From: an uncultured Clostridia bacterium
GTDB lineage: Bacteria; Bacillota; Clostridia; Oscillospirales; Ruminococcaceae
Direction: 5' to 3'
Assembly (NCBI GenBank): GCA_947307175.1
Contig: CAMZIK010000019.1
Span: forward strand, 1-37,031
DNA: 37,031 nt
Shown: positions 208-30,746 of the stretch, piece by piece
Position numbering within the stretch: position 1 is the first letter of the stretch
Layout of the letters: the number at the start of each line of letters is the position of its first letter
Translations under genes and position numbers: made by a program
Notes under the pieces: model-generated
Seen by the model: the letters and a program-made list of their open reading frames with translations, nothing else
Told to the model about the DNA's origin: nothing
The model's database searches: none

Positions 208-1227
208 ATGAAAAAAAGAATATTGTCTGTCCTTGCAGCAGCCTGCCTTTGCTTGATGTGTGTGACGGGCTGCAGCGAAACCAGCTCGGAAAAGGACGAC
301 AGCAAAGCGCTCTCTCAGGCGGAGCAGACCTCGCAGACAAGCGAGACTTCACAGGAAACGACCACGCAAAGCACCATCACTACGCAAACTTCCTCTGAAT
401 CACAAACCACCACAACGACCGAAGAAACAACTACCACAACTTCCGCCGAAACAACAGAGCAGACGACCACAACATCTGCTTCTTCTCAGCAGGCGCAGCC
501 TCCTGTTCCTACGCAGCGCACAACTGCAAACACGACTGCCGCAAAACCAACAGAAACAACTAAAGCACAGACCACCGCTTCAAAGGTCAAAAGAGTAAAA
601 GGCACATCGCCCAATATCTCGTTTTATCAGTCAAGGCTCGTTGTCGCAGGCGATTCCGTTGCCGCAGGATATAACGCCTACGGCTATATCCCCGATAACC
701 ATAACCTTGCGATAAAAAATGTCTCCGTGACATCATACAGAAATTATACCTTCAATGCAACAGGTCAGTGGCTCGGCATCGTCGAGTCGATAGAAAAAAT
801 GAAGCCATCGCTCATACTCACATCTATGGGCGCAAACGATTGCCTTATATCTCCCTCGCTCTACGGACAGAGATACAGGGACTATCTCAAAAGGCTCCGT
901 GCCGCTTCTCCCGACAGCATCATTCTTGTCGGAGCGCTCACGCCGACCGCACTTAAAACCAACTATCCCCACGTCACTATCAATATCGTCCGCAGCTTCA
1001 ATGCCCAGCTCAAAGCGCTGGCAGAGTCAATGGACGATAAGGTCATATACTTTGATGCCTTTTCTGTAGTCGTTGAGGATAACGGAGTCTATATGGATCC
1101 CAATTTTGCAGCCTTTGACGGCTTTCACCTCCAGGAAAAAGCCTATGAGGAGCTGCTCAGGGTCATGGCAGTAACACTTGACAGCCACGGTGCAAAGGAA
1201 AAGATAACCGCCCGTGAAAACGGATAA
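208..1227 (+). CDS. SGNH/GDSL-hydrolase family lipoprotein with Thr/Ser-rich linker (paralog 1)
   Basis: Lipobox-like LMCVTGC; Thr-rich linker; VAGDSVAAG, GANDC and DGFHL blocks of SGNH hydrolases. Confidence 0.88.
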   Translation: MKKRILSVLAAACLCLMCVTGCSETSSEKDDSKALSQAEQTSQTSETSQETTTQSTITTQTSSESQTTTTTEETTTTTSAETTEQTTTTSASSQQAQPPVPTQRTTANTTAAKPTETTKAQTTASKVKRVKGTSPNISFYQSRLVVAGDSVAAGYNAYGYIPDNHNLAIKNVSVTSYRNYTFNATGQWLGIVESIEKMKPSLILTSMGANDCLISPSLYGQRYRDYLKRLRAASPDSIILVGALTPTALKTNYPHVTINIVRSFNAQLKALAESMDDKVIYFDAFSVVVEDNGVYMDPNFAAFDGFHLQEKAYEELLRVMAVTLDSHGAKEKITARENG

Positions 1228-1247
1228 ATCTAATTGTTCAAAAGGGA

Positions 1248-1271
1248 ATGCTCCTGCGTTCCCTTTTTTTG
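1248..1271 (+). terminator. Intrinsic terminator after SGNH paralog 1
   Basis: AAAGGGAA-loop-TTCCCTTTTTTT. Confidence 0.7.
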
Positions 1272-1275
1272 TCGC

Positions 1276-1304
1276 TTGACTTTTGCAAGCATAAGTGCTA
1301 TAAT
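1276..1304 (+). promoter_or_regulatory. Sigma-A-like promoter for SGNH paralog 2
   Basis: TTGACT-N17-TATAAT. Confidence 0.75.
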
Positions 1305-1347
1305 ATGCAAATCATAGTCTGAATAAATCGGAAAAGAGGAAATATAA

Positions 1348-2361
1348 GTGAAAAAGAAATTGTTAGCAGTGCTGTTTTCCTTCTGCCTTGCAGCTCTCCA
1401 GCTCACAGGCTGCGGAAACAACGTCGAAGATGCCTCAGGTATCTCCCAGGCAGAACAGACGACCGAAAGCACCACCACAACAAGCGATACTACCCAGGAA
1501 ACAACTACCATCACCGAAAGCGCCGTAGAAGCATCTGGCAGCCTCGCAACATCGGAAACCTCCGAAACAACGACAAGCGAGACTACAACAACTACCACGA
1601 CCACTTCCGAAACAACTACCACCACAACTCAGCAAACTACCACCACAACAAAAGCACCTGCACAGACGACCACCGCTCCAAAGCAGACCTCTAAGCCTGC
1701 TGTGACTACTAAGCCTTCCACAGCATCAAAGCCTGCACCCGTTACCACTAAAACTCCAGCTGCAAGCTCGTCCAATGTAAAGTTTTATCAGGACAGGGTA
1801 TATGTGACCGGGGACTCGGTAGCACTCGGTTTCAAGGTGTATAACTATATCCCTGCTGCACATAACCTTGCGATAGGCTCTCTTTCGATGAACAACTACA
1901 CATGGTTTGGCACTGTCAACGGAATGAGGGTGATCGATGCGATTGCAGCAGCTCAGCCAAAGCTTTTGTATGTTTCTATGGGCATAAACGATGTCAACCT
2001 TACAAATGCGCAGACATATGCGGCAAACTATGCGGGATTTGTGAAAAAAGTCAGGGCGAAAGTGCCCGGCTGCATAATCGTTGCGGCAAATATCACTCCT
2101 GTCGCATCGTGGTCGAACTTTACATCTATCAGTAATATAAGAAACTGTAATACTGCTATGAATAATGCTGTAAAAGCTCTCAACGACCCAAATATCATTC
2201 TTTTTGATGCATACAGCGTCGTTTCGGCAGGCGGTGTATATATGGTGAGCAGCTACAGCGGCGGCGACGGCATACACCTTGCAGGTCATGTTTATCAGTA
2301 TATTCTCAACAGGCTCGCAGTTGTGCTCGACCAGTACGGCGTGAAGGAAAGATTGTCGTAA
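1348..2361 (+). CDS. SGNH/GDSL-hydrolase family lipoprotein with long Thr-rich linker (paralog 2)
   Basis: Lipobox LQLTGC; VTGDSVALG, GINDVN, DGIHL motifs; poly-Thr linker. Start codon GTG. Confidence 0.88.
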   Translation: MKKKLLAVLFSFCLAALQLTGCGNNVEDASGISQAEQTTESTTTTSDTTQETTTITESAVEASGSLATSETSETTTSETTTTTTTTSETTTTTTQQTTTTTKAPAQTTTAPKQTSKPAVTTKPSTASKPAPVTTKTPAASSSNVKFYQDRVYVTGDSVALGFKVYNYIPAAHNLAIGSLSMNNYTWFGTVNGMRVIDAIAAAQPKLLYVSMGINDVNLTNAQTYAANYAGFVKKVRAKVPGCIIVAANITPVASWSNFTSISNIRNCNTAMNNAVKALNDPNIILFDAYSVVSAGGVYMVSSYSGGDGIHLAGHVYQYILNRLAVVLDQYGVKERLS

Positions 2362-2420
2362 AAACTAAAATATGCGTTATTATGGGAGCATTTTTGGTAA
2401 AAAGTGCTCTCTTTTGTTTG

Positions 2421-2449
2421 TTGACAAAAAGCGACAATGGTGATACAAT
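2421..2449 (+). promoter_or_regulatory. Sigma-A-like promoter for SGNH paralog 3
   Basis: TTGACA-N17-TACAAT. Confidence 0.75.
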
Positions 2450-2480
2450 AATAAGTGTATGTGCGAATAGGAGGAAAGTA

Positions 2481-3350
2481 ATGAATAAAAAAATATTGGC
2501 AGCTCTCGTGAGCGCTGTTATGGCACTTGGAATGCTCACAGGCTGCGGAAATGAGATCAAGGGACACGAAGCGAGAGTTATCGACGCAGATCAGAGCAGT
2601 CAGACCGGAAACGACAATAATTCAACTGATCCCAATATCAACGACAGCATAACTCCTTATTATGACCCGAATATCGAGAAAGTAGACAGCATTGATTATC
2701 TTAAAGCCGATAATATGAAATATTATTTTGAAAAGATGGTAGTTGCGGGAGATTCTATCGCAAACGGCTGGCAGTTCTACGGACTGCTCCCAAAGAGCAG
2801 ATCTATCGCCTACGGCGGACTTTCAACGTTTGGTTTCACCGTGTGGGAGTATGATACCACAGGCAAGACTCTCGGAATGAGAGAGACACTGAAGAAAGTC
2901 AATCCGACTCTTTTGTATGTCTGCCTCGGAATGAACGATGTAAATATCAGAGATAAGGAGACCTTTGCTTCTCAGTATCTCGACCTTCTGAAAAAACTTA
3001 AAACCTACGTTCCCGATTGTTTTATCGTTGTGCAGAGCATAACACCTGTCGCAAAAACAAACGTCTATAAGCAGGTCAACAATTCTTCGGTAAGGGCATA
3101 TAATGCAGAGCTAAGAAAGGTAGTTGCCGAATTCGGCAGGGAAGATGTCATATACTTCAATGCCTATAATTCATTGCTTGACGAAAACGGACAGCTGGAT
3201 ATGAAATACGAAGCAGGCGACGGTCTGCATATAAATACCGAAGCTTATAAAAAACTGCTTGAGGATCTTTCCAAGAGACTCAATCAGGAAATGGCAAAAC
3301 AGCGTATCGAAGCTGTCGAGGAACAGCGCAAGGAAAAAGCTAACCAGTAA
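2481..3350 (+). CDS. SGNH/GDSL-hydrolase family lipoprotein (paralog 3)
   Basis: Start at ATG 2481 (MNKKILAALVSAVMALGMLTGC) after aggagg-like RBS; VAGDSIANG, GMNDVN, DGLHI motifs. The upstream part of the 2382 ORF lies over the promoter. Confidence 0.87.
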   Translation: MNKKILAALVSAVMALGMLTGCGNEIKGHEARVIDADQSSQTGNDNNSTDPNINDSITPYYDPNIEKVDSIDYLKADNMKYYFEKMVVAGDSIANGWQFYGLLPKSRSIAYGGLSTFGFTVWEYDTTGKTLGMRETLKKVNPTLLYVCLGMNDVNIRDKETFASQYLDLLKKLKTYVPDCFIVVQSITPVAKTNVYKQVNNSSVRAYNAELRKVVAEFGREDVIYFNAYNSLLDENGQLDMKYEAGDGLHINTEAYKKLLEDLSKRLNQEMAKQRIEAVEEQRKEKANQ

Positions 3351-3380
3351 GGGAAAAATATTATCTGTGGGGGAAAACAT

Positions 3381-4709
3381 ATGAAAAAGAAAGGTATAAA
3401 GCTGACTGCCTGTGTGAGCGTGCTTGCAATGGCGCTTTCGGGCTGCGGCAGCAATGTCTCTTCAAGAGCCATCGATGAAGGCTCTAATGGCGCAGTCGAT
3501 GCCAATGCATCAACGTACAATATCACAGCCGAGGTCAATACAGTCTATTCTGCCCAGAAGCTCGGAGAACTTGCATCTTTCGGAGATGGCTATAAGTTTG
3601 AGTTCGACGGAAGTGAGAATGATATAAAATTCTCATCTCTCGGAAAAAGCTCAGTCGGTATAAAGGCGATCAAGGACGGACAGGATTCAAAGACGCTGGT
3701 ACTCAATGTGAATGTTGTCGATACCACAAGCCCCGTTTTCAGCGGCATAAAGGATATAACCATCAAAGCTGGGGAGTCTGTTGACCTTAAAAGCGGAGTC
3801 ACCGTCAGCGATAACTACGACCAGAATGTCGAGTTTACCGTGACCTACGATAAGGACGATACCAATACCGGCGCACCCGGTAAGCACGTTATAACCTATG
3901 TTGCCAAGGATTCTTCGGGAAATGTCGCTTCAAGAAAAGCTACCCTTACTATCGAGGGAGACTCCTCGCAGAGCGACCAGACAACAACGACCACCACCAC
4001 AGCCCAGACCGAAGCTCCAAAGACAGAAAGCAGCAGCGTGTCAACAACTGCCGCAGCACCTGACCCGAATGCTAAATCCGATAACGTCAAGTTCTATCAG
4101 GATAGGATTGTTATCGCAGGCGATTCGATAGCTTACGGCTTTTGTGCCTACGGATATGTCCCTTACGAGCATAATATCGCAAAGGGAAGCACAGCGATGA
4201 GAAACTATGACGATACCAGCCTGTTCATGTTTGACCCGACAGGCAGCGACCTGTCTATGATGGACGCTATCAAGGCAGTAAAGCCAAGCCTTCTGTACAT
4301 CTCTATGGGCATGAACGATGTCAACCTCATCGACTCCGAGACCTATGTTTCAAGATATAAGGAGTTTATCCAGAAAGCGAAAGAGCAGGTACCTGATGCG
4401 ATAATCGTCGCAGCTTCCATAACACCTATCTCATCGACCTGCGGATTTACCGATATAAACAATATCAAATCCTGCAACGAAGGGCTTAAAAACCTCATCG
4501 GATCGCTTAATGACCCAAATGTCCTGTTCTTTGATGCTTACAGCGTGATAGTCGGCTCGGACGGCTCATATTCCGCACCGAACACCACAGGACCTGACGG
4601 TATACATCTTGTCGGCAGCTGCTATCAGCAGATACTTGAAAAGCTCGCAGTCGTGCTCGACCAGAGCGGCATAAAGGATAAGATAACCGAAATAGAATCA
4701 AAAAGATAA
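3381..4709 (+). CDS. SGNH/GDSL-hydrolase lipoprotein with an extra Ig-like (DUF5011-like) domain (paralog 4)
   Basis: Lipobox ALSGC; TSPVFSGIKDITIKAGESVDLKSGVTVSDNYD...YVAKDSSGNVASRKATLTI resembles bacterial Ig-like domains; IAGDSIAYG, GMNDVN, DGIHL motifs. Confidence 0.87.
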   Translation: MKKKGIKLTACVSVLAMALSGCGSNVSSRAIDEGSNGAVDANASTYNITAEVNTVYSAQKLGELASFGDGYKFEFDGSENDIKFSSLGKSSVGIKAIKDGQDSKTLVLNVNVVDTTSPVFSGIKDITIKAGESVDLKSGVTVSDNYDQNVEFTVTYDKDDTNTGAPGKHVITYVAKDSSGNVASRKATLTIEGDSSQSDQTTTTTTTAQTEAPKTESSSVSTTAAAPDPNAKSDNVKFYQDRIVIAGDSIAYGFCAYGYVPYEHNIAKGSTAMRNYDDTSLFMFDPTGSDLSMMDAIKAVKPSLLYISMGMNDVNLIDSETYVSRYKEFIQKAKEQVPDAIIVAASITPISSTCGFTDINNIKSCNEGLKNLIGSLNDPNVLFFDAYSVIVGSDGSYSAPNTTGPDGIHLVGSCYQQILEKLAVVLDQSGIKDKITEIESKR

Positions 4710-18393: not shown

Positions 18394-18769
18394 ATAAATC
18401 AGAATTTATAGTTCTAATCAGACTTTGAAAACCTGTCATAATAACAGGTTTTTCGGTCAAGCCTTTTCTCGTAAAAAAGGCTTGCGGGTCAAGGGCAGCG
18501 CCCTTGCCGACGTCCGCAGACGGCGGAATACCTGAGCGTCAGGCGCACGGCAAAAGACGTGAACAACCGAACAGCAAGCTGTTCGCTCGAGAGGGAAAGC
18601 CCTGTAAGAGAGGGCTTTCCCTTGCCCCGTGGTAACGCCAGCCGCCTCAAGCCGCCTGCGTAAAGGCGGCTTGAACAACAGATGTCGAGTTCTTGTTTTT
18701 GGGGGCTTTCCGATCGCCCCCAAACCCCTTCGGACACACACTTGTTTAATAATATAAATTCTGATTTAT
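18394..18769. mobile_element. MITE-like / multi-hairpin repeat element with 17-bp terminal inverted repeats (copy 2)
   Basis: ataaatcagaatttata (18394-18410) and tataaattctgatttat (18753-18769) are perfect inverted repeats; eight or more perfect internal stem-loops; right part repeated at 1-163. Confidence 0.75.
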
Positions 18770-20127
18770 CACTGTCTGAGGTAAACTCCGTTTTCCTCAA
18801 TGTATTCTTCCATATCCTCTTTGTATTCGAGGTCAAGCAGGTCGTAGTTGTCAAGCGCCTTGAGCGCACGCTGTCCGATGTCGCTGCGGTAGTGAACATC
18901 TACCCAGCTGATCTTCTTCACAGCCTCATAGCTCTTGTCCAGCGCACCCTGCAAAGTCAGCGCCGTGCAGGTAACACCAAGCACACGAACGCCGTTGTTG
19001 GTGAACTTGCCGTCACTGAGCTTCGTTCCTGCGTGGTAAACGAATGCACCTTCGACCTGACCGTTTTCGTCAAGTCCCGAGATCTCATAGCCTTTCTTGT
19101 AGCTTGTCGGGTAGCCGCCGCTTGCCATAACAACGCAGGTGCAGAAGCCCTCTTTCCAGCCGATCTTTACATCAGCAAGTTTATGCTCGTAAATAGCCTC
19201 AAATATCTCGCAGAGATCGCCGTCAAGCATCGGCAGAACGACCTGAGTTTCAGGGTCACCGAAACGGCAGTTGTATTCGATCACCTTAGGACCCTTCGGA
19301 GTCAGCATCAGTCCGAAATACAGACAGCCCTCAAAAGTGCGTCCCTCAGCGTTCATCGCATTCATCGTCGGCAGGAATATCTGCTCCATGCACTGCTTTG
19401 CAATGTCCTCTGTGTAGTACGGATTCGGAGCAACAGTGCCCATTCCGCCCGTGTTCAGTCCGAGATCGCAGTCCAGCGCCCTCTTGTGATCCATCGACGA
19501 GATCATCGGAACGATAGTCTTTCCGTCAGTGAACGAAAGCACCGATACCTCAGGACCTGTCAGGAACTCCTCAACTACGATAGTAGCGCTGCTCTTGCCG
19601 AATTTCAGCTCGTCTATCATCGAGTGTATAGCCTCAACAGCCTCAGCCTCGTTCTGTGCCAGGATAACGCCCTTGCCCAGAGCCAGACCGTCCGCCTTGA
19701 TAACAGCAGGGTAGCTGTTCTGCTTTTTCACATAAGCGATTGCCTCAGCGCTGTTGTCGAATACCTCGTACTTTGCAGTCGGGATATTGTATTTTTTCAT
19801 AAGCTCTTTTGAGAATACCTTGCTGCCCTCGATTATCGCAGCGTCCTTCTTAGGACCGAAAGTCTTGAACCCTTGAGCCTGTAAAGCGTCTACCATGCCA
19901 AGCACCAGCGGGTCGTCAGGAGCAACAGCCACCATGTCCACTTTCAGCTTCTTAGCCAGAGCCACAACGCCCTCAATGTCCGTCGCCGCAACGTCAAAGC
20001 ACTCAGCGTACTTTGAGATGCCGCCGTTTCCGGGCGTGCAGTAAAGCTTGCCAACTTTCTTTGATTCAGCCAGCTTCATAATTATTGCATGTTCACGGCC
20101 GCCGCCGCCAACAACGAGTATGTCCAT
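18769..20127 (-). CDS. purD: Phosphoribosylamine--glycine ligase
   Basis: MDILVVGGGGREHAI, KADGLALGKGVILA, EEFLTGPEVSVLSF, FGDPETQ motifs. Confidence 0.97.
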   Translation of the reverse strand: MDILVVGGGGREHAIIMKLAESKKVGKLYCTPGNGGISKYAECFDVAATDIEGVVALAKKLKVDMVAVAPDDPLVLGMVDALQAQGFKTFGPKKDAAIIEGSKVFSKELMKKYNIPTAKYEVFDNSAEAIAYVKKQNSYPAVIKADGLALGKGVILAQNEAEAVEAIHSMIDELKFGKSSATIVVEEFLTGPEVSVLSFTDGKTIVPMISSMDHKRALDCDLGLNTGGMGTVAPNPYYTEDIAKQCMEQIFLPTMNAMNAEGRTFEGCLYFGLMLTPKGPKVIEYNCRFGDPETQVVLPMLDGDLCEIFEAIYEHKLADVKIGWKEGFCTCVVMASGGYPTSYKKGYEISGLDENGQVEGAFVYHAGTKLSDGKFTNNGVRVLGVTCTALTLQGALDKSYEAVKKISWVDVHYRSDIGQRALKALDNYDLLDLEYKEDMEEYIEENGVYLRQ

Positions 20128-20151
20128 ATTTTCTTCCTCCGTAAAAAAAAA

Positions 20152-21333
20152 TTAGTGGTGGAACAGTCTGATGCCCGTGAATGCCATAGCAATGTTGTAT
20201 TTGTTGCAGGTCATTATAACATGGTCGTCACGGATAGATCCGCCCGGCTCAGCAATGTAAGCAACGCCCGACTTCTTAGCTCTCTCGATGTTGTCGCCAA
20301 ATGGGAAGAAAGCGTCAGAACCAAGGCAAACGTCCTTGTTCTTAGCTATCCATTCTCTCTTTTCCTCAGCGGTCAGAACTTCTGGCTTTACCTTGAAAAG
20401 TGTCTGCCAAACGCCGTCAGCAAGTACATCGTCATGCTCATCGGAAATGTAAACGTCGATGGTGTTGTCTCTGTCAGGACGTCTGATGTCATCAACGAAC
20501 TGAAGTCCGAGTACCTTTGGATGCTGACGCAGCCACCAGATGTCAGCCTTGTTTCCAGCAAGTCTCGTGCAGTGTATCCTCGACTGCTGACCTGCGCCGA
20601 TACCGATAGCCTGTCCGTTCTTAACGTAGCAAACAGAGTTGGACTGTGTGTATTTCAGAGTGATGAGCGAGATAACAAGGTCTGTTTTCTTGTCGTCAGG
20701 AATGTCCTTGTTGTCTGTAACGATATTTGTGAGCATATCGTTGTCTATCTTCAGCTCGTTTCTGCCCTGCTCGAAGGTAACGCCGTAAACCTGCTTTCTC
20801 TCGATAGGAGCTGGAACATAGCTCTCGTCTATCTGAATGATGTTGTATGTGCCTTTTCTCTTTGATTTGAGAATCTCAAGAGCCTTGTCGGTGTAGGAAG
20901 GAGCGATGATACCGTCGGAAACCTCTCTCTTGATAAGGTTAGCCGTGCAGGCGTCGCACTCGTCCGAAAGAGCGATAAAGTCACCGTAAGATGACATTCT
21001 GTCAGCGCCTCTTGCCTTTGCGTAAGCGCAAGCCATAGGTGTCAGCTCGCCCAGATCGTCAACAAAGTATATCTTAGCCTCAGTCTCTGTAAGCGGAGTT
21101 CCCACAGCCGCACCTGCTGGGGAAACGTGCTTGAAAGAAGTCGCAGCGCAAAGCCCCGTAGCCTTTTTCAGCTCCTTTACCAGCTGCCAGCCGTTGAAAG
21201 CGTCCAGCAGATTGATGTAGCCCGGCTTGCCGTTAAGCACCGTGATAGGCAGCTCCTTTCCGTCCTCCATAAAGACCTTTGACGGCTTCTGATTAGGGTT
21301 GCAGCCGTACTTTAAAAGCATTTCGTTTGCCAT
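20152..21333 (-). CDS. Stand-alone AICAR formyltransferase (PurH C-terminal-domain type, no IMP cyclohydrolase domain)
   Basis: LKYGCNPNQKP, LNGKPGYINLLDA, SFKHVSPAGAAVG, LKYTQSNSVCYVKNGQAIGIGAGQQSRIHCTRLA, SDAFFPFGDNIERA; 393 aa with no N-terminal MGS-like domain. Confidence 0.93.
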   Translation of the reverse strand: MANEMLLKYGCNPNQKPSKVFMEDGKELPITVLNGKPGYINLLDAFNGWQLVKELKKATGLCAATSFKHVSPAGAAVGTPLTETEAKIYFVDDLGELTPMACAYAKARGADRMSSYGDFIALSDECDACTANLIKREVSDGIIAPSYTDKALEILKSKRKGTYNIIQIDESYVPAPIERKQVYGVTFEQGRNELKIDNDMLTNIVTDNKDIPDDKKTDLVISLITLKYTQSNSVCYVKNGQAIGIGAGQQSRIHCTRLAGNKADIWWLRQHPKVLGLQFVDDIRRPDRDNTIDVYISDEHDDVLADGVWQTLFKVKPEVLTAEEKREWIAKNKDVCLGSDAFFPFGDNIERAKKSGVAYIAEPGGSIRDDHVIMTCNKYNIAMAFTGIRLFHH

Positions 21334-21349
21334 TTTCCATTACCTCCGT

Positions 21350-22084
21350 TTATTTGATAGTGTAGTCTTTCATTTTTTCTTTATCTCCAAAGAACGCATC
21401 CATGTCGATGTGTTCTTCTTCGCCCTTATAGCCTTCGAGCCTTGCATCGTCGCTGTACTGCCAGAAGACCCAGTCTCCCACAAACAGCGGCTTGAAATAA
21501 ACATTTCTTATCCACAGCGGATAATCTGCAAGTTCGCTTTCTTTTATGTATTTGTCATAGCTTTTGCCTGTTGCATATATTATCGGCTTTACCCCGTAGT
21601 GTTCCTCCAGTGCTTTAGCCATATCCAGAACTTCGGGTACAACATCGCTGCTGTCTTTCGGAGACTTTTCATAATCCCCGTAAAACTCAAGGTCAATCAC
21701 AGGCGCAAGCATACCGCTTTTCTTTTCAACAGTCTTTATAAAATGCTCTGCCTGCTGCTTTCCGCTGCTGTCAAAGCTGAAAAAGTGGTAAGCACCGCAG
21801 ATAAGATCGGTCTTTAATGCATTTTCAAGGTTGTATTCAAACCTTTCGTCAATATGCTCGCTGCCTTCGGTCGCTTTGATGAAAGCAAAGTCTATGCCTT
21901 TTGAAGCAAGCACCTTCCAGTCTATCTCGCCCTGATAGCTTGAAACGTCAACGCCCTGCATCTCATAATTGCCGTAGAACATATCGTTCGGGTGCAGTAT
22001 CTTAAAGTAAACAAGACCGAGCAGCGCGGCACATATTACAATCAAGCAGGCAAATACTATAAGAATCTTTTTGCGTATACTCAT
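21350..22084 (-). CDS. Glycoside hydrolase family 25 (lysozyme-like), membrane-anchored
   Basis: N-terminal TM; GVDVSSYQGEIDWKVLASKGIDFAFIKATEGSEHID, GAYHFFSF, PVIDLEFYGDY, IYATGKSYDKYI. Confidence 0.92.
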   Translation of the reverse strand: MSIRKKILIVFACLIVICAALLGLVYFKILHPNDMFYGNYEMQGVDVSSYQGEIDWKVLASKGIDFAFIKATEGSEHIDERFEYNLENALKTDLICGAYHFFSFDSSGKQQAEHFIKTVEKKSGMLAPVIDLEFYGDYEKSPKDSSDVVPEVLDMAKALEEHYGVKPIIYATGKSYDKYIKESELADYPLWIRNVYFKPLFVGDWVFWQYSDDARLEGYKGEEEHIDMDAFFGDKEKMKDYTIK

Positions 22085-22087
22085 TGA

Positions 22088-24103
22088 TCATTCCTTCCAG
22101 AACTCCGTGTTGAAGTATTCCGAGTTCTGCTGTATCTGCTCTGTGAACTCGTCTCTGCCCATTTCCTCGGCAAGTGTTTTTTTATCTGAGAACAGGTCGG
22201 TCCCCAGTCCCAGTCTGCCGCCTTTTATCTCTGCGCCCAGCGCCGAAAGGGTAGTGGGGAACATATCCATAGGCGAGAAAATTCGGTTCTTAGGGTTTTC
22301 AGGAGTCTTCTGCGCATTGATGAAGCAGTTGTACGGCGTCCTCTCGTAGCCGTCCTGTTCAAGCTCCATTCCCTCAGGAACGTGTTCTGCGATGTGATCT
22401 CCCGTGATGATTACCACCGTGTCCTCAAAGTAAGGCTTTGTCTTTAGCCAGTTTATAAAGCTTTCCACCTGCCTTGAAGTGCAGTTCACCGCCGAAGCGA
22501 ACCTGTTTCCGAGGCTGTTGTCGCAAAGCGGGCAGCGGTAGCCTTCCTCGAAGCTGTGCGTGTCCATAGTGTACATCGTCACCGCAAACGGCTTGTCACC
22601 CTTTGCAAGCTCATCTATCTTCTGCTTTGAGAATTCAAACATCTTTCTGTCCTCAAAGCCCCACATCTCAAAGTAGTCCTCTGGTATAAGCCCTTCCTCT
22701 TTTGCCTTGTTCAGATCGAAGACATTGCTGTCCCCGTATCTTCCGACATAGCTGTTGTAAGCCGCAAAGTTTGCGTCCGAGCCTTCAATGAAAAGCTGCT
22801 CGTAGCCGTTGTCGTGAAGCACATCTTCCAGCCTGCGCAGCGACGGCAGAAAGCTTTTCAGCTCGCCCATGTCGTTTCTCATCTTTCCCAGCGGAGTCAT
22901 CAGCACAACGCCTGAAGTCTGGGCGATAGTCGCTCCCATCGTGTAAGCTATGCTCGAAGTGCGTACTACCGAACCGCCGAGCTTGTCGGTGTTAGAAAAG
23001 TTCAGGTTGTCCTTTGCAAGCTTAGTAAGCTCAGGCATTATGTCCGAGTCCTGTATACCGCCGTTTTCAGGCGTCGTGTATGAGTTCTCAAATGATTCGA
23101 GATATATGTAAATAAGGTTTTTCTTCTTTTCGGGGAACACTATATTCTCAGCGCTTGGCGCAACATAGTGCTCCTCATAGATAGTCGATGTATGCAGCAG
23201 ATTGCTTATGTACGAGAATGTACTCGTCTCATAGAACAAAGCCGCTGCCGAAAATACGGGCAGAACTATCCATACCGTCAATCTTGCAGGCTTAGCTTTT
23301 GCCCTGAATTTTGTTTTTTTGTCCGGGCATCTGAATTCGATGCTGTCCGAGCGTGTCATTCTGATAAGCCTTACGCAAAGCACCGCCGCCGCAGCGACCG
23401 CCAGACACGCATATATCACGAGCTTTCTGGCCATGTCGGGAGAGTACCCGTCGTTAGCAAAACGTATCGTGAACAGTATCGCTTCGATGTCCATGCTCGG
23501 AAAGTGAAAATGCAGAAAAGTCGTCGCAGTCAGCATCAGAGCCGACAGACACATAAGTATGCACCCGACGATAAGTCCTATCTTCCTGCCGACACTCCTT
23601 TTCCCGTCCTTCTTTTCAGCGCTGAAAAACGGCTGTATCGACATAAGCAGCAGCCTGTACACCCTGAATATCACAAAGGGCTTGAACGGCTTTGCCGCAA
23701 GAAAGCTCATCAGCCTGTGCAGCACAAGCGCTCCCAGGCATATCCCTATCGGTATCAGCCAGATGACCAGCCACCTGATGTGCCTGTGCTGACCGTAATA
23801 AGTCTCGCTGCAAATGAAGTTTACCGAGCTGTCGTAGCCTGTGCTTGCAAAAATGTATATCCCCACGACCCTGTACAGCCAAAGCGGCGACCTTACAGGC
23901 GAAACGCAGGGCAGCCAGAAAGCCGTAAGGCTTAAAAACGGACACAGCGCATAGAATACCCCTTCAAAAATGCCGACATCGAGAAATGTCAGCAGAAGCT
24001 GCATTATCCTTGCCGTGACCGCAGCCGAAGCCGCAAGCGTAAATATTATATGACCCTTCGGGTTTTTCTTTATACAGCCTGCATATGCGGATAAAAGTCT
24101 CAT
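22088..24103 (-). CDS. LTA synthase-like membrane sulfatase/phosphoglycerol transferase family protein
   Basis: Multiple N-terminal TM helices; YIYLESFENSYT, FIEGSDANFAAYNSYVGRYG, TMDTHSFEEGYRC, VVIITGDHIAEHVPEGM. Confidence 0.88.
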   Translation of the reverse strand: MRLLSAYAGCIKKNPKGHIIFTLAASAAVTARIMQLLLTFLDVGIFEGVFYALCPFLSLTAFWLPCVSPVRSPLWLYRVVGIYIFASTGYDSSVNFICSETYYGQHRHIRWLVIWLIPIGICLGALVLHRLMSFLAAKPFKPFVIFRVYRLLLMSIQPFFSAEKKDGKRSVGRKIGLIVGCILMCLSALMLTATTFLHFHFPSMDIEAILFTIRFANDGYSPDMARKLVIYACLAVAAAAVLCVRLIRMTRSDSIEFRCPDKKTKFRAKAKPARLTVWIVLPVFSAAALFYETSTFSYISNLLHTSTIYEEHYVAPSAENIVFPEKKKNLIYIYLESFENSYTTPENGGIQDSDIMPELTKLAKDNLNFSNTDKLGGSVVRTSSIAYTMGATIAQTSGVVLMTPLGKMRNDMGELKSFLPSLRRLEDVLHDNGYEQLFIEGSDANFAAYNSYVGRYGDSNVFDLNKAKEEGLIPEDYFEMWGFEDRKMFEFSKQKIDELAKGDKPFAVTMYTMDTHSFEEGYRCPLCDNSLGNRFASAVNCTSRQVESFINWLKTKPYFEDTVVIITGDHIAEHVPEGMELEQDGYERTPYNCFINAQKTPENPKNRIFSPMDMFPTTLSALGAEIKGGRLGLGTDLFSDKKTLAEEMGRDEFTEQIQQNSEYFNTEFWKE

Positions 24104-24137
24104 TCGTTGTCACCACTGTACATTTTTTTGTACAGTT

Positions 24138-24575
24138 TTACCCCTGTTCTTTTTTCTTTTTCCGTTTCAGCATAAGCTTTTTCGGTCTTATTTTTATCTT
24201 TCTTTTTTTCTTTTCTTTTGTCGGGATCGTCCTGATCTCGTCAACGTGAGTGAACACATTTTCGGGATTTACAAAGCCGTAATCGCTCTGAAGCTCTCTG
24301 CCCACATAGATGTGTACCTCCGTGCGCATGCCCTTGTATTCGTTTTTCACGCTTCCGTTGAGCGTAGCGATGACAAGCTCGCCCGTGTCCTTTATCGTAC
24401 CGATAAGAGTGACCTTTGTAGCGATAGGCAGTCTTCCCGTCTTGACAGCAGCTTCCTCGCCGTCAATGATGAGCCTTGTCCTGCCCTTGTTCACTATCCT
24501 TATCTCATGACCGTTGTAGTCGGTGCGCCACGCCTCATGGTCGCCCATTTTGTAAGCAAGTGTTTCGGTAGCCAT
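24138..24575 (-). CDS. Hypothetical protein with strongly basic C-terminal tail
   Basis: 145 aa; C-terminus KEKKKRKIKIRPKKLMLKRKKKKEQG. Confidence 0.6.
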   Translation of the reverse strand: MATETLAYKMGDHEAWRTDYNGHEIRIVNKGRTRLIIDGEEAAVKTGRLPIATKVTLIGTIKDTGELVIATLNGSVKNEYKGMRTEVHIYVGRELQSDYGFVNPENVFTHVDEIRTIPTKEKKKRKIKIRPKKLMLKRKKKKEQG

Positions 24576-24589
24576 CTCAAACCTCCGTG

Positions 24590-25306
24590 TTATTTAGAGT
24601 ATTTGTTTACGACCTTTGTTGTTGCCTTTCCGCTTTCAATATCAATGAATCTTACAAACAGCGAAACCTTGTTGTCCTCGTTCAGAGCGTTCCACAGATC
24701 GTTTGTGAAAGCATCGATGTCGTTTGGTATCTCTATCTTTTCAGGTTCGCCCTCAAAGCTCGGCAGCGGGTTTCCGTCGCCCATGTATGTGTGGATAAAG
24801 TGACCCACGCCGTCCAGAGGCTTGGTGTAGGTGAAAGTAAATCTTTCAGCACAGTCAGGGTTTCCGTCTGCTGATTTGATGATGTTCATAGCATAGTTGT
24901 ATTCGCCGTTTCCAACGTGCATAATGCCTGAGATACGAGGAGTGTAGTTCGGAGCATCGTCCTCGTAGAGCCTTGTGCGCAGAGCCTGCTCAAAGGTCTG
25001 CTGCTTGTCCATAAGCTCATATATAGTGTCGGTCTGGTCGCCGTTAGTAACGATAGTCTTGTTTCCCAGAACTCTGACAGGGGAGTAGATGATAAGGTGC
25101 GGATCTGTCAGCTTGCTCGGATCGGCAGCCTCGGTCTTTATTCCGTCCTCAGTTTCGGTGAAAACTCTGTTTCTTGAGTTCACGCTTCTTCCCATGATGA
25201 AATAAGCCGTAACAGCGCTCTTTCCGTCAGCGCTCTTTCCGATGATTATTCCTCTTCCGGGGTAGCTGTTAGCCTTTAAAGCCTCATAAATGTCGATGGT
25301 TTTCAT
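24590..25306 (-). CDS. IMP cyclohydrolase, PurO-type (IMP_cyclohyd family)
   Basis: ANSYPGRGIIIGKSADGK, YFIMGRSVNSRNRVF, TPRISGIM, HTYMGDGNPLPSFEGEPE. Confidence 0.85.
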   Translation of the reverse strand: MKTIDIYEALKANSYPGRGIIIGKSADGKSAVTAYFIMGRSVNSRNRVFTETEDGIKTEAADPSKLTDPHLIIYSPVRVLGNKTIVTNGDQTDTIYELMDKQQTFEQALRTRLYEDDAPNYTPRISGIMHVGNGEYNYAMNIIKSADGNPDCAERFTFTYTKPLDGVGHFIHTYMGDGNPLPSFEGEPEKIEIPNDIDAFTNDLWNALNEDNKVSLFVRFIDIESGKATTKVVNKYSK

Positions 25307-25344
25307 GGTATCTCTCCTTATAAGTTATTTTTCCGTTTTCTTCA

Positions 25345-25536
25345 TTATTTTCTTTTGCGCCAAAACATAAACAGACCTGTCATAAGAGCAAGGGTGCCTG
25401 GGAAGATAAGGTTTGCGCCTATACTGAACTCGAACTCACTGCTTGTGATGAATCTTGAATACAGATAGTCCAGAAGTGTGTAAACTCCAATGAATATCGC
25501 AATATAGGCTATAAGCATCAGTATCATTCTTGCCAC
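25345..25536 (-). CDS. Hypothetical small two-TM membrane protein
   Basis: 63 aa, two hydrophobic helices, basic end FWRKRK. Confidence 0.5.
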   Translation of the reverse strand: MARMILMLIAYIAIFIGVYTLLDYLYSRFITSSEFEFSIGANLIFPGTLALMTGLFMFWRKRK

Positions 25537-25542
25537 AGTCTA

Positions 25543-26046
25543 TTAGTCCCTTTCAGCTTTCATGTTTATGCAGTCCCACTTTTCGCCGCCGAATTCAAAA
25601 CTATCCTTTTCGGTGTCCGTCGGGATAAAGCCAGCTGCCTTGTAGCAGCCCAGTGCGCTTTCGTTGTTCGCAAAAACTCCGAGCGTAACGACCTTTGCGC
25701 CGAATATCTCAAACGCATATCTCAGCGCCTGCGAGAGCATCTGCTTGCCGTAGCCCTTGCCTCGCATTTCGGGCGAAATGATTATGAAGCCCATGTGTAT
25801 GCTGTTGTTTTCACAGTCTGCTTTGCGGAAAATAAAGTGTCCGCAGACTTTTCCGCTTTCGTCCAGCGCCGTCATGAACCACGCATTTTCGTCCTTGCAG
25901 AATTCGTCGTATCTGTCGTTCAGCTGCTGCGGTGTCATCGGGTATGTGTACATTCCCGCACACCATTTCATAAAGCCTTTTTCGTCTGTCAGCCAGCTGC
26001 TTATTATCCCGCTGTCTGACTTCTTGTACGGTCTTAATCTTATCAT
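25543..26046 (-). CDS. GNAT-family N-acetyltransferase
   Basis: MIRLRPYKKSDSGIISSWL start; GFIIISPEMRGKGYGKQMLSQALRYAF acetyl-CoA motif. Upstream extension of the ORF overlaps purN and is unlikely. Confidence 0.88.
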   Translation of the reverse strand: MIRLRPYKKSDSGIISSWLTDEKGFMKWCAGMYTYPMTPQQLNDRYDEFCKDENAWFMTALDESGKVCGHFIFRKADCENNSIHMGFIIISPEMRGKGYGKQMLSQALRYAFEIFGAKVVTLGVFANNESALGCYKAAGFIPTDTEKDSFEFGGEKWDCINMKAERD

Positions 26047-26087
26047 TTTTGTCTCTCCTGATCTTCTGTCTTTTGTTTTTTTATCTC

Positions 26088-26723
26088 TTAGTCGTCTTCT
26101 CTTATGACGTATGCCTTGCCGTCTTTTATCTCTATCCTGTCCTCGCAGAAAAGCGAAACAGCTCTGGGAAGTATCTTCCATTCAGCTTTTTCCATTATCC
26201 TGCGCTGGAGCGTTTCGGGAGTGTCATCATTTCTGACTGCAACAGGGAACTGCAGGATTATTGCGCCTGCGTCTGCCTGCTCGTTTACGAAATGCACAGT
26301 CGCACCCGATACCTTTACACCGTATTCAAGCGCCTTTTCGTGAACTTTCAGCCCGTAGAAACCTTCTCCGCAGAAGCTCGGGATAAGCGCAGGGTGAACG
26401 TTTATTATCCTGTATGGGTACGTCTTGGTCACACATTCGTCAAGGATAGTCATAAAGCCCGCAAGTACCACAAGATCAGCCTTCTGCCTGTTGAGCTCCG
26501 CAAGGATAGCCTCGCTGTAAGCCTTGCTGTCTGAGTATTCTTTTCGTGGTATAACTACCGTCGGTATATCTGCTTTTTTAGCACGCTCCAGAGCAAAAGC
26601 TCCGTCCTTTGAGGATATAACGCAGGTTATCTTTCCGCCTTTTATCTCGCCTCTGTCCTGCGAGTCGATGAGCGCCTGTAAGTTCGTTCCGCCGCCCGAA
26701 ACGAGTACAACTATGTTTTTCAT
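26088..26723 (-). CDS. purN: Phosphoribosylglycinamide formyltransferase
   Basis: VLVSGGGTNLQALID, LVVLAGFMTIL, NVHPALIPSFCGEGFYG, GATVHFVNEQADAGAII. Confidence 0.96.
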   Translation of the reverse strand: MKNIVVLVSGGGTNLQALIDSQDRGEIKGGKITCVISSKDGAFALERAKKADIPTVVIPRKEYSDSKAYSEAILAELNRQKADLVVLAGFMTILDECVTKTYPYRIINVHPALIPSFCGEGFYGLKVHEKALEYGVKVSGATVHFVNEQADAGAIILQFPVAVRNDDTPETLQRRIMEKAEWKILPRAVSLFCEDRIEIKDGKAYVIREDD

Positions 26724-26875
26724 ATTTTCAGTTCCTTAAATCATTATTATAGCCACCCGGCAAAACAGCTCCGATGCTGTTGCCGCTGCGTGACTGCGGA
26801 AATTCTTCCGGTGCTTTGTTGAGTAGATCCTTTTGAAAAAGAATCTTTCCTGAACTCTCTCGGGATCTCTCACTA

Positions 26876-27044
26876 CTTTTTCGTTATCGGGGTCTTTTGA
26901 CCCCGATGGCGAAAAAGCAATAAAAGGTTTCTGAAAGGGGGATAAGCGGCCTTGCGGTCGCTTGCGAGGATATTCAAAGAATATCCTCGGGGGACAACAG
27001 AGTAACCGTTGCCACGGTTACTCTCGAAAATGCGCAGCATTTTC
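26876..27044. repeat. Cluster of five consecutive perfect or near-perfect stem-loops in the purM-purN intergenic region
   Basis: Hairpins 26876-26917, 26946-26961, 26965-26989, 26999-27024, 27026-27044. Confidence 0.85.
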
Positions 27045-27096
27045 TGCTTCATCTAAAAGAGTTTGCCCCAATAAAACACCGAAAGTATCTCCTCAA

Positions 27097-28143
27097 TTAT
27101 TCGGTGATAACTACGCCGTAGTCGGCTTTGATAAGCTCGCCGAGGACATAAGCGTCTTCGCCTGCGGCTTTGATAGCCTCAACAGCCTTATCTGCGTCAG
27201 CCTTGTCGACAACTACGGTCATACCAACGCCCATGTTGAACGTGTTGAACATATCTCTTTCGGGGATATTGCCTGTCTTTGCGATAAGATCGAAGATAGG
27301 CAGCACCTGAACGTCTTTTCTTGAGATCTTAGCCGAAAGACCCTTTGGCAGTGAACGTGGAATATTCTCGTAGAAGCCGCCGCCTGTGATGTGGGAAATG
27401 CTCTTGACGTTTACTTTGTCAAGCAGGCTCATAATAGCCTTGACGTAAATTCTTGTCGGAGTCAGCAGAACTTCACCGAGAGTCTTTCCGCCAAGCTCGT
27501 CGTAAGTCTTTGCAAGGCTTTCTTCGCTCACGTCAAAAACCTTTCTAACAAGGCTGAAGCCGTTTGAGTGAACACCGCTTGACTTTATGGCGATCATAAC
27601 GTCGCCCTCTTTCTGCTTGCTCGGGTCGATTATCTTGTCCTTGTCAACAACGCCGACAGAGAAGCCTGCAAGGTCGTAGTCCTCATCAGGCATAAGACCC
27701 GGATGTTCAGCTGTTTCTCCGCCGATAAGTGCGCAGCCAGCCTGAACGCAGCCCTCTGCAATGCCGGAAACGATCTGAGCTATCTTTTCGGGATAGTTCT
27801 TTCCGCAGGCGATGTAGTCAAGGAAGAACTGCGGCTTTGCTCCGCAGCAGATAATGTCGTTTACGCACATAGCTACGCAGTCGATGCCGACAGTGTCGTG
27901 CTTGTCAAGCAGGAAAGCGATCTTTATCTTCGTGCCAACGCCGTCAGTTCCCGAAACGAGAACAGGCTTGTTTATGCCTGTGATGTCAAGCTCGAACAGA
28001 CCTCCGAAACCGCCGATGCCGTCGAGAACTCCCTTTGTGACAGTCCTTGCGACATACTGCTTCATAAGCTCGACAGCCTTGTATCCTGCCGTAACGTCAA
28101 CTCCTGCGTCCTTGTAGCTGTTTGAATAGCTGTTATTGTTCAT
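27097..28143 (-). CDS. purM: Phosphoribosylformylglycinamidine cyclo-ligase
   Basis: [74 protein letters not shown]. Confidence 0.96.
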
Positions 28144-28176
28144 ATGTCTTATCCTTTCGTTGTATATGATATTTGG

Positions 28177-29610
28177 TCATTCACTGCAATTTTCTTTTCC
28201 GTTCCAGCAGTATGTGCAAAGCTTGCAGCCTTCAAGCTCCACTGCTTTGACAGTGCCTTCGAGCGACTGGAATTCAAGCGATGTGAGTTCAAGTCTGCGG
28301 CATATCTCATCTCTGAGCAGCCTGCCTCTTTCGGTGTTGGAATCGCTGTACTCACTGATGTATTTAACTCCCTCAACGCCCTCGTTCTCGTCGATTATCT
28401 GTCTTGCGATAAGTTCAAGCTCCGAATTGCTGCGAGAGAAGTTGAGGTATTTGCAGCCATACATTATCGGCGGACAGGCAGAGCGCATATGAACTTCCTT
28501 TGCGCCGTTCTCGTAAAGGAACTCAACAGTTTCTCTCATCTGTGTTCCTCTTACGATGCTGTCATCGACAAACAGCAGCTTTTTGCCTTTGATAAGGTCG
28601 TGGACAGGTATCAGCTTCATCTTTGCGACTTTGTTTCTCATCGACTGGTTGGTCGGCATAAAGCTTCTCGGCCAGGTCGGAGTGTATTTGATGAACGGTC
28701 TTGCAAACGGTATGCCGCTTCGGTTCGCATAGCCTATCGCATGCGGAGTGCCTGAGTCGGGAACGCCGCAGACGTAGTCAACATCGGGCAGCCTGCCATT
28801 CTTGATGTCGTTTTCCGCCATTATCATGCCGTTTTTGATCCTCATGACCTCAACGTTCTTGCCCTCATATGTAGCGTTGGGGTAACCGTAATAAGTCCAT
28901 AAAAATGTACAGATACTCATTTTGTCGGTGCCCTCGGCAAGTATCTCATAGCCGTCTTTGTTCAGCTTGAGTATCTCACCTGCTTTCATCTCGTGACAGG
29001 TCGAATAGCCCAGTTTCATGAAAGCGAAGTCCTCAAACGAGAAACAGAAACCGTCAGATCTTTTTCCTATGATTATCGGCAGCTTGCCTGCCTTGTCTCT
29101 TGCGCAGATAACGGAATCCTCAAGCATTATCACCAGTGACATTGTTCCGTTTATCTTGCTCTGTGCATATCTGATGCCTTCAACAAAATTTTCTTTCTGT
29201 GCGATCAGCGCACCGATAAGATCTGCTGCGTTTATCGAACCGCTGCTCATTGTTTCAAAATTCGCACAGCCGCTGTGAAGAAGCTCGTTGGACAGCTCAT
29301 CTGCGTTATGTATGACTCCTACCGAGCAAATAGCGTAAAGTCCCAGCTTTGAGCGTACCATGATAGGCTGTGGGTCAGTATCACTGATACAGCCGACGCA
29401 GACCTTTCCACGCATGCTTTCAACATCTTTTTCAAAGTTAGTACGAAACGGAGAATTTTCAATGCTGTGGATATTTCTCTGGAAACCAAGCTCGGCGGAA
29501 TAAGAGGTCATACCGCCTCGTCTTGTACCGAGATGAGAATGATAATCAGTTCCGAAAAAAACATCCTGAATGCAGTCGTTAGCTGAAACTGCTCCGAAAA
29601 AACCACCCAT
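28177..29610 (-). CDS. PurF-like amidophosphoribosyltransferase homolog with degenerate glutaminase site
   Basis: PRPP-binding LLFVDDSIVRGTQMRETVEFLYENGAKEVH and GVPDSGTPHAIGYA; N-terminus MGGFFGA instead of MCG; C-terminal CKLCTYCWNGKENC. Confidence 0.85.
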   Translation of the reverse strand: MGGFFGAVSANDCIQDVFFGTDYHSHLGTRRGGMTSYSAELGFQRNIHSIENSPFRTNFEKDVESMRGKVCVGCISDTDPQPIMVRSKLGLYAICSVGVIHNADELSNELLHSGCANFETMSSGSINAADLIGALIAQKENFVEGIRYAQSKINGTMSLVIMLEDSVICARDKAGKLPIIIGKRSDGFCFSFEDFAFMKLGYSTCHEMKAGEILKLNKDGYEILAEGTDKMSICTFLWTYYGYPNATYEGKNVEVMRIKNGMIMAENDIKNGRLPDVDYVCGVPDSGTPHAIGYANRSGIPFARPFIKYTPTWPRSFMPTNQSMRNKVAKMKLIPVHDLIKGKKLLFVDDSIVRGTQMRETVEFLYENGAKEVHMRSACPPIMYGCKYLNFSRSNSELELIARQIIDENEGVEGVKYISEYSDSNTERGRLLRDEICRRLELTSLEFQSLEGTVKAVELEGCKLCTYCWNGKENCSE

Positions 29611-29660: not shown

Positions 29661-30158
29661 TCAGATGTTTTTCAGTGTTTCCTGAAGAGCAGCGTCCTTA
29701 GCCTTTACGCCGTCAAGCATCTTCTGTTTCTCGTTTTCAAGCTTTTGTGCAAGTCCTTCATCAGAAAGCGCAAGCATCTGTATCGCAAGGATAGCAGCGT
29801 TCTTTGCACCGTCGATAGCGACAGTTGCAACAGGTATTCCCGACGGCATCATGACCGTAGCGAGAAGTGCGTCCATTCCGTCAAGTGCAGCCGACTTGCA
29901 GGGGATACCGATAACTGGAAGTGTGGTGTGTCCTGCGATGACACCTGCAAGGTGTGCAGCCATGCCTGCGGCGCAGATAATTACGCCGAAGCCGTTAGCT
30001 TTCGCATTTGCAGCAAATTCGCTTGCAAGCGCAGGCGAACGGTGAGCGCTCATAACGTGGCATTCGTAAGGAACTCCGTAGGCTTTCAGCTCTGCGATAG
30101 CTTTTTTTACTACCGGCAGATCACTGTCCGAGCCCATGATAACAGCAACTTTTTTCAT
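29661..30158 (-). CDS. purE: N5-carboxyaminoimidazole ribonucleotide mutase
   Basis: [67 protein letters not shown] ggagg about 8 nt before ATG. Confidence 0.95.
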
Positions 30159-30171
30159 TTTCATTACCTCC

Positions 30172-30206
30172 GAAAAACAAAAAACTGCAACTTGACCGTT
30201 GCAGTT
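30172..30206 (-). terminator. Intrinsic terminator in the purE leader (candidate attenuator)
   Basis: Minus strand AACTGCAAC-ggtcaa-GTTGCAGTTTTTTGTTTTTC, 9-bp perfect stem ending ~25 nt before the purE start. Confidence 0.88.
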
Positions 30207-30330
30207 ATATTTTACCTGTATTTGTCTGTATGCGTGCAGACATACTTGTGTGCGCAAAAGCAAAGCGGTAAGCGCCGTGACAGCAGTATCCGCCGATAGC
30301 GTATGGAGATTTTGAAATGCTTTTTCTCAT
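30205..30330 (-). CDS. Putative 41-aa purE leader peptide
   Basis: MRKSISKSPYAIGGYCCHGAYRFAFAHTSMSARIQTNTGKI; preceded by gcggaggg RBS; stop TAA overlaps the terminator 5' arm. Confidence 0.55.
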   Translation of the reverse strand: MRKSISKSPYAIGGYCCHGAYRFAFAHTSMSARIQTNTGKI

Positions 30331-30396
30331 AGAAAAGCCCTCCGCACCCGATTTTGCGTCCAAGCTGCTTTCACGCAGCAAGAAAACCACAATATA

Positions 30397-30425
30397 ATTG
30401 TACAATATTTGCTCGGAAATTTCAA
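30397..30425 (-). promoter_or_regulatory. Sigma-A-like promoter for the purine cluster leader
   Basis: Minus strand TTGAAA-N17-TACAAT. Confidence 0.65.
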
Positions 30426-30509: not shown

Positions 30510-30746
30510 TCACAAGAATTGGGAGCCTTGCTGCATAATATCACTGCCTTCAGGGTCAGTCATCCTGTTGACGAGCTGCTGCATTTCCTGTGGTGAATGG
30601 GCGTTATGGCTGTCGTTTATGAGCTGCTGTTTCTGAACGGGCGAGAGCTTTGCGAAGACATCGAAAGCCATAGCATTCTGCGCCATTGCCATTGAAAGAC
30701 CAAGAGGAATGTCCTGAGGTGAATAAACGGGTTTTATCTTTTTCAT
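30510..30746 (-). CDS. Hypothetical small protein
   Basis: 78 aa MKKIKPVYSPQDIPLGLSMAMAQNAMAFDVFAKLSPVQKQQLIND...; RBS aaaggagaa. Confidence 0.65.
   Translation of the reverse strand: MKKIKPVYSPQDIPLGLSMAMAQNAMAFDVFAKLSPVQKQQLINDSHNAHSPQEMQQLVNRMTDPEGSDIMQQGSQFL

Follow-up and report, generated by a model that had tools for sequence, protein, structure and literature searches.

We found a conserved leader upstream of purE, the first gene of a predicted purine biosynthesis operon, in which a short open reading frame (ORF) led by a Shine-Dalgarno (SD) sequence ends at an intrinsic terminator. As judged from sequence comparison, this leader may act as a translation-coupled attenuator, in which a pause of RNA polymerase inside the ORF would set the distance between ribosome and polymerase, and would then be a purine counterpart of the pyrBI and pyrE attenuators (rough probability 0.6). 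It occurs in Ruminococcus and in dozens of related gut bacteria of the family and its order. The window, that is, the whole 37,031-nt stretch of DNA analysed here, carries the leader and the purine genes as follows:

30397..30425, minus strand: sigma-70-type promoter TTGAAA-N17-TACAAT, read from the sequence (-35 TTGAAA 30425-30420; spacer 17 nt; -10 TACAAT 30402-30397)
30364..30379, minus strand: 5'-UTR hairpin GCTGC-gtgaaa-GCAGC, read from the sequence; not conserved
30338..30343, minus strand: Shine-Dalgarno sequence GGAGGG of the leader ORF, read from the sequence
30205..30330, minus strand: leader ORF, start ATG 30330, 41 codons (30330-30208) and stop TAA 30207-30205
30264..30294, minus strand: hairpin GGCGG...CCGCT inside the leader ORF, candidate pause hairpin with its 3' end 12-13 nt ahead of the pause site (RNAalifold; dG and position against shuffles)
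30251..30262, minus strand: candidate RNA polymerase pause site (G-10 = 30261, C-1 = 30252, A+1 = 30251)
30183..30206, minus strand: intrinsic terminator hairpin AACTGCAAC-GGTCAA-GTTGCAGTT, perfect 9 bp
30173..30182, minus strand: terminator U-tract
29661..30158, minus strand: purE, first gene of the operon, SD 30171-30167 (TIGR01162, E=1e-55)
18769..29610, minus strand: downstream purine cluster (profile matches)
28177-29610, minus strand: purF-like gene
27097-28143, minus strand: purM
26088-26723, minus strand: purN
24590-25306, minus strand: archaeal-type IMP-cyclohydrolase-like gene (PF07826, E=3e-69)
20152-21333, minus strand: stand-alone AICAR formyltransferase (PRK07106)
18769-20127, minus strand: purD

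The near-perfect promoter predicts a transcription start near 30390 and a 5' UTR some 60 nt long, and the same promoter with its 17-nt spacer is common to every leader of the window's genus and to most other genera. The first-pass annotation had described this promoter, the SD-preceded 41-codon ORF whose UAA stop lies on the 5' arm of the 9-bp terminator, and the purE ribosome-binding site and ATG (30158) behind it; all of these are present, the stop codon overlapping the terminator arm. The GCTGC-gtgaaa-GCAGC hairpin that it also listed is found in the sequence, but is absent from the consensus structure of 25 relatives, and a conserved hairpin and pause-like site within the ORF (30294-30251) had been overlooked. 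The downstream purine cluster is presumably co-transcribed with purE. Bifunctional PurH is replaced in this cluster by the archaeal-type IMP cyclohydrolase-like protein and the stand-alone AICAR formyltransferase, and the cluster also encloses, at 21350-24103 on the minus strand, genes for a GH25-type lysozyme and a membrane protein with a sulfatase domain (LTA-synthase-like). A 78-codon ORF immediately upstream of the promoter (30510-30746, minus strand) has no NCBIfam or Pfam match. At 208-4709 the window carries a row of four ORFs for secreted lipoprotein-like proteins; Thr/Ser-rich linkers occur in some of them, and by look they resemble GDSL/SGNH hydrolases.

The SD/ORF/stop-at-terminator architecture is practically certain to be real. 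We compared the window's genome and 28 other species of its genus (29 genomes) with other genera, counting distinct purE upstream regions with a terminator within 170 nt (n=163) and scoring the layout as an ORF of at least 18 codons with a required SD 5-mer and a stop codon between -16 and +8 nt relative to the terminator arm. The nulls were dinucleotide shuffles and other terminators. The alignment of purE upstream regions, which the first-pass annotation had named as a check, revealed that the ORF frame and the overlap of stop and terminator are conserved across genera, with the layout in 118 of the 163 leaders compared to 6.0 in shuffles. Counting one locus per genus-level unit, units that are not fully independent of each other, gave 68/100 against 4.0 by shuffle, and an earlier, stricter pass on 84 loci gave 57 with the layout against 0.7 expected. 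At other terminators in the same loci the layout was found in only 15/292 cases. Within the window's genus, 25 of the 27 leaders with a terminator keep every element, from the promoter and SD through the start codon and open frame to the stop at the terminator. The distribution of stop codons relative to the terminator arm has peaks at -1 and -7 nt, and alignment gaps are divisible by three in 26/40 cases inside the upstream ORF (uORF) versus 14/69 in the 5' UTR. Conservation of the promoter, of an apparently translated frame and of the stop/terminator overlap is secure by this comparison.

About 28% of the purE leaders with a terminator contain no detectable uORF, and many purE genes lack a terminator directly upstream. 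One genome of the comparison (G001) has an intact leader that is separated from purE by another gene. At four loci (L055, L073, L077 and L010) the uORF stop lies inside the terminator, as a TAG in its loop, so that a ribosome terminating there would be positioned on top of the hairpin.

The layout persists beyond the window's genus although the encoded peptides are no longer alignable; leader peptides of different genera are unrelated to each other. This bears on the reading offered by the first-pass annotation, in which translation or release of the leader peptide would set expression, and on a version of it in which the nascent peptide would stall the ribosome at or near the stop codon in response to a purine-linked ligand. 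Such a mechanism would account for a stop codon placed at the terminator, and the peptides of the window's genus do share part of a motif, S-x-x-Y..GG..YRL..HS. The synonymous bias that had been suggested as a check did not appear, in that pooled pN/pS in this genus was 0.78 in frame, which is no lower than the 0.81 of one shifted frame (1.14 in the other), and selection at the peptide level was thus undetectable in this test. The [HY]S position lies anywhere from about 7 to 16 codons before the stop, and the leaders have no conserved residues at a fixed distance from a stall site of the kind found in TnaC, SecM or Erm leaders. Inspection of the peptides also revealed no shared run of codons for one amino acid. 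A recurrent C-terminal 'G-I-x-A/V' (GIxA) is a nucleotide-level motif, as GGNATNNNTGYA, the sequence behind it, is conserved and turns up in each of the three frames. We dropped GIxA and HS as arrest-peptide motifs, because the same nucleotides occur in other frames and lie at a fixed distance from a hairpin. Since the peptide is not conserved, control through arrest or release of a specific peptide is quite improbable.

Could the RNA itself be the sensor, with the ORF being incidental? RNAalifold on 25 leaders of the window's genus recovered only two conserved helices, the terminator and the GGCGG..CCGYC helix inside the ORF, and the latter shows covariation, with a change from G-C to A-U in one clade, as would befit a riboswitch not yet described, or an RNA bound by a protein, with this hairpin at its centre. 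Its loop, however, varies in length and neither loop nor flanks contain a conserved core, most genera lack an in-ORF hairpin altogether, and it is the frame and the stop codon that are conserved. Partition-function folding of 57 leaders gave the terminator 5' arm no pairing partner that the leaders share, i.e. no antiterminator. An Rfam covariance search of the window returned no match at the gathering threshold, and a search of 11 homologous loci at a relaxed threshold returned only an irrelevant hit (E=0.73), which bears out the earlier statement that no purine/guanine, PRPP or ZTP riboswitch is recognisable here. Taken together, we give an RNA sensor of this kind very little credence. A possible long-range pairing of SD and CACUC, seen by eye in some species, was not general on inspection. 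The ZTP riboswitch (RF01750) is absent from all 29 genomes of the window's genus. Several other families of the order have it immediately before purE (L271, L272, L279, L289 and L295), and control of purE thus appears to have been exchanged between this riboswitch and the coupled leader.

Inside the ORF, the leaders carry a signature of transcriptional pausing. NET-seq logos of paused polymerase show G-11, T-3 and G-2. The elemental pause consensus includes G-10, Y-1 and G+1 (PMC12288461, PMC9291695), and the nucleotide motif behind GIxA coincides with this signal. We scored the combined consensus as GG-N6-TGYR, with Y at -1 and R at +1, in any reading frame of the 70 nt before the terminator. 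It was present in 53 of 85 genus-level units (window's genus excluded; units not fully independent) compared to 5.9 expected, and it was found in all three reading frames. A scan of spacings had its maximum at the canonical N6 (53), with 31 for N5, 25 for N7 and at most 11 for all others. Other terminators had the motif in 17/292 cases and without an N6 peak (Fisher p=4e-27).

The window's genus lacks GG-N6-TGYR and belongs to six genera with a second form, in which a hairpin of varying sequence precedes the Y of a [C/T]AC step, so that Y is followed by A. The 3' end of this hairpin lies at -12 to -14 relative to Y, close to the published distance of 10-13 nt between hairpin and RNA 3' end at pauses (PMC12288461). 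Its mean dG is -11.9 in the window's genus, versus -1.9 in shuffles, and -7.9 to -13.4 in the other five genera, and G-10 is present in 29 of 39 rows, with one locus counted twice. In hairpin distance, G-10 and Y-1 this form resembles a class I hairpin-stabilised pause of the his type, as far as sequence can tell. The pause site in the window was placed by aligning the [C/T]AC sites of the six genera and by the published consensus, and is a candidate in this sense. Both forms are found in one region of the leader, in most cases between 5 and 50 nt ahead of the terminator. Recognition of the motif was post hoc, although it is defined independently of these data and was set against several kinds of null. 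We consider it likely that the pause is real and needed.

These elements suggest the following course of events. Transcription from the promoter would expose the SD-led ORF, and the polymerase would then pause within the ORF at a pyrimidine/purine step, held by the hairpin 12-14 nt upstream in the window's genus or by the elemental pause consensus in most other genera. With ATP (or GTP) scarce, escape would be slow, since a purine nucleotide is needed next, and during the long pause a ribosome could catch up and follow the polymerase. Upon reaching the stop codon, it would cover the terminator 5' arm while this is being made, which would block the hairpin and allow transcription of purE and the cluster. 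With purines plentiful, the polymerase would leave the pause and run ahead, so that the terminator folds and transcription stops. Few purines would thus lead to a long pause and to read-through, a negative feedback of the right sign.

That a ribosome held at the stop codon covers the terminator arm had been proposed in the first-pass annotation, and this part of the earlier reading gains support from the stop/terminator overlap across genera and from precedent in E. coli, where termination fell from about 90% to less than 10% when the stop codon was placed 5 bp instead of 28 bp ahead of a terminator (PMC4824070). We consider read-through by ribosome occlusion of the terminator quite likely. 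What speaks against the mechanism is that Bacillota are thought to show runaway transcription, with the polymerase outrunning the ribosomes (PMC13323073, PMC7858274), so that ribosomes would rarely catch it and termination next to a stop codon would ordinarily proceed. For the same reason, an in-ORF pause would be needed for the ribosome to catch up, and this pause would have to overcome the runaway.

Runaway transcription also invites a simpler explanation, namely that the ORF is a short independent gene with its own terminator and without regulatory link to purE. Stop codons near terminators are normal where transcription outruns translation, and a short stop-to-terminator distance is, according to the account of Johnson 2020 given in PMC7858274, a proxy for this condition. 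The leaders, however, encode no conserved peptide as gene product, and short SD-led ORFs end at only the 15/292 other terminators of these loci mentioned above. Moreover, expression of the purine cluster needs some read-through, because the terminator separates all of it from the conserved promoter. An unrelated small gene is thus a highly improbable explanation.

Within the coupled attenuator that we prefer, the signal sensed would be, by a slight preference, the level of ATP or GTP. The base following GG-N6-TGY is a purine in 60 of 69 leaders (A40 G20 C7 T2), compared to 18 of 33 cases elsewhere (T12 A10 G8 C3; p=8e-4). A+1 predominates in the leaders, whereas the usual consensus has G+1; an A at this position suits ATP sensing and could weaken the pause. 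The same attenuator could instead respond to translation capacity, be it initiation, an effect of ppGpp/GTP on ribosomes or growth rate, with the pause serving only to synchronise ribosome and polymerase. All evidence on the architecture fits this version equally well, and synchronising pauses with a +1 purine are also found in amino-acid leaders (PMC9291695). The +1 purine bias, however, is missing after the same motif at other terminators, and the device is located at the purine cluster and not at purC or, with one exception, pyrB. We regard a translation-capacity signal as rather unlikely.

Regarding this specificity, no such leader was found in purC upstream regions of the window's genus. 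A purC-like match is present on two contigs of the window's genome (G000:C226:769-1512 and G000:C18:5-730), reflecting a duplicate gene or assembly redundancy. At pyrB, included as a positive control with U+1, terminators are rare and a uORF ends at one in 1/30 loci, and the control was uninformative because so few loci had a terminator. In that single case (L341, upstream of pyrB in genome G070) an SD-led uORF ends at a terminator made up of a G+C hairpin and then ATTTTTGGTG, and this leader may be a genuine counterpart for pyrimidines.

The proposed purine attenuator shares individual traits with several known systems. In E. coli rph-pyrE, translation ends just upstream of the terminator, and a ribosome at the stop codon can block it. 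The leader described here likewise ends translation at a terminator, but does so with a dedicated short ORF without conserved peptide, rph being a full gene. In pyrBI, the polymerase pauses in the leader when UTP is low, which gives the ribosome time to reach it and block the terminator (PMC10135430). As in E. coli pyrBI with its pyrL leader, we find a leader ORF in front of a nucleotide biosynthesis operon, with a predicted pause in the leader and an intrinsic terminator that a close ribosome would block. Unlike pyrBI, the purE leader serves purine and not pyrimidine genes, is found in Ruminococcus and related Bacillota, has its stop codon at the base of the terminator, and features a pause signature with a purine at +1 in place of a U-rich template. 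A purine-rich tract as analogue of the pyrBI U-tract was not found: over the 110 nt that precede the terminator in leaders of the window's genus, purines make up 34-54% per 10-nt bin, with one bin at 57%. The putative pause resembles those of the his, trp and leu leaders, with G-10 and a hairpin that precedes a pyrimidine/purine step by about 11-13 nt; unlike these, the purE leaders have neither a single-amino-acid codon run, on inspection, nor an alternative antiterminator. With the ZTP (pfl) riboswitch RF01750 the leader shares its position upstream of purE, but it contains no aptamer. Leaders of the B. subtilis tlrB/vmlR type combine polymerase pausing with a leader peptide, but their pausing is NusG-dependent and they respond to ribosome-targeting antibiotics, in contrast to the biosynthetic feedback proposed here. 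In the literature searched, we found no description of a purine version of nucleotide-sensing coupled attenuation, nor of this purE leader itself.

Coupled attenuation that senses nucleotides is known from pyrimidine genes of E. coli. The layout reported here is found in roughly two of every three genus-level units examined with a purE terminator, despite the classification of Bacillota as runaway (PMC13323073). If our reading is true, the leader shows where and how coupling is engineered in bacteria with runaway transcription. It would also be a candidate for the control of purine synthesis in the abundant Ruminococcus of rumen and gut, in which the ZTP riboswitch was not found. We tentatively propose, at a little less than even odds, that these bacteria share a clade-wide purine-NTP sensor whose only parts are a pause of the polymerase, an expendable leader ORF and a terminator, and which may stand at purE where other families of the order carry a ZTP riboswitch. 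Its ATP- or GTP-gated pause would restore coupling locally and thereby switch the whole pathway.
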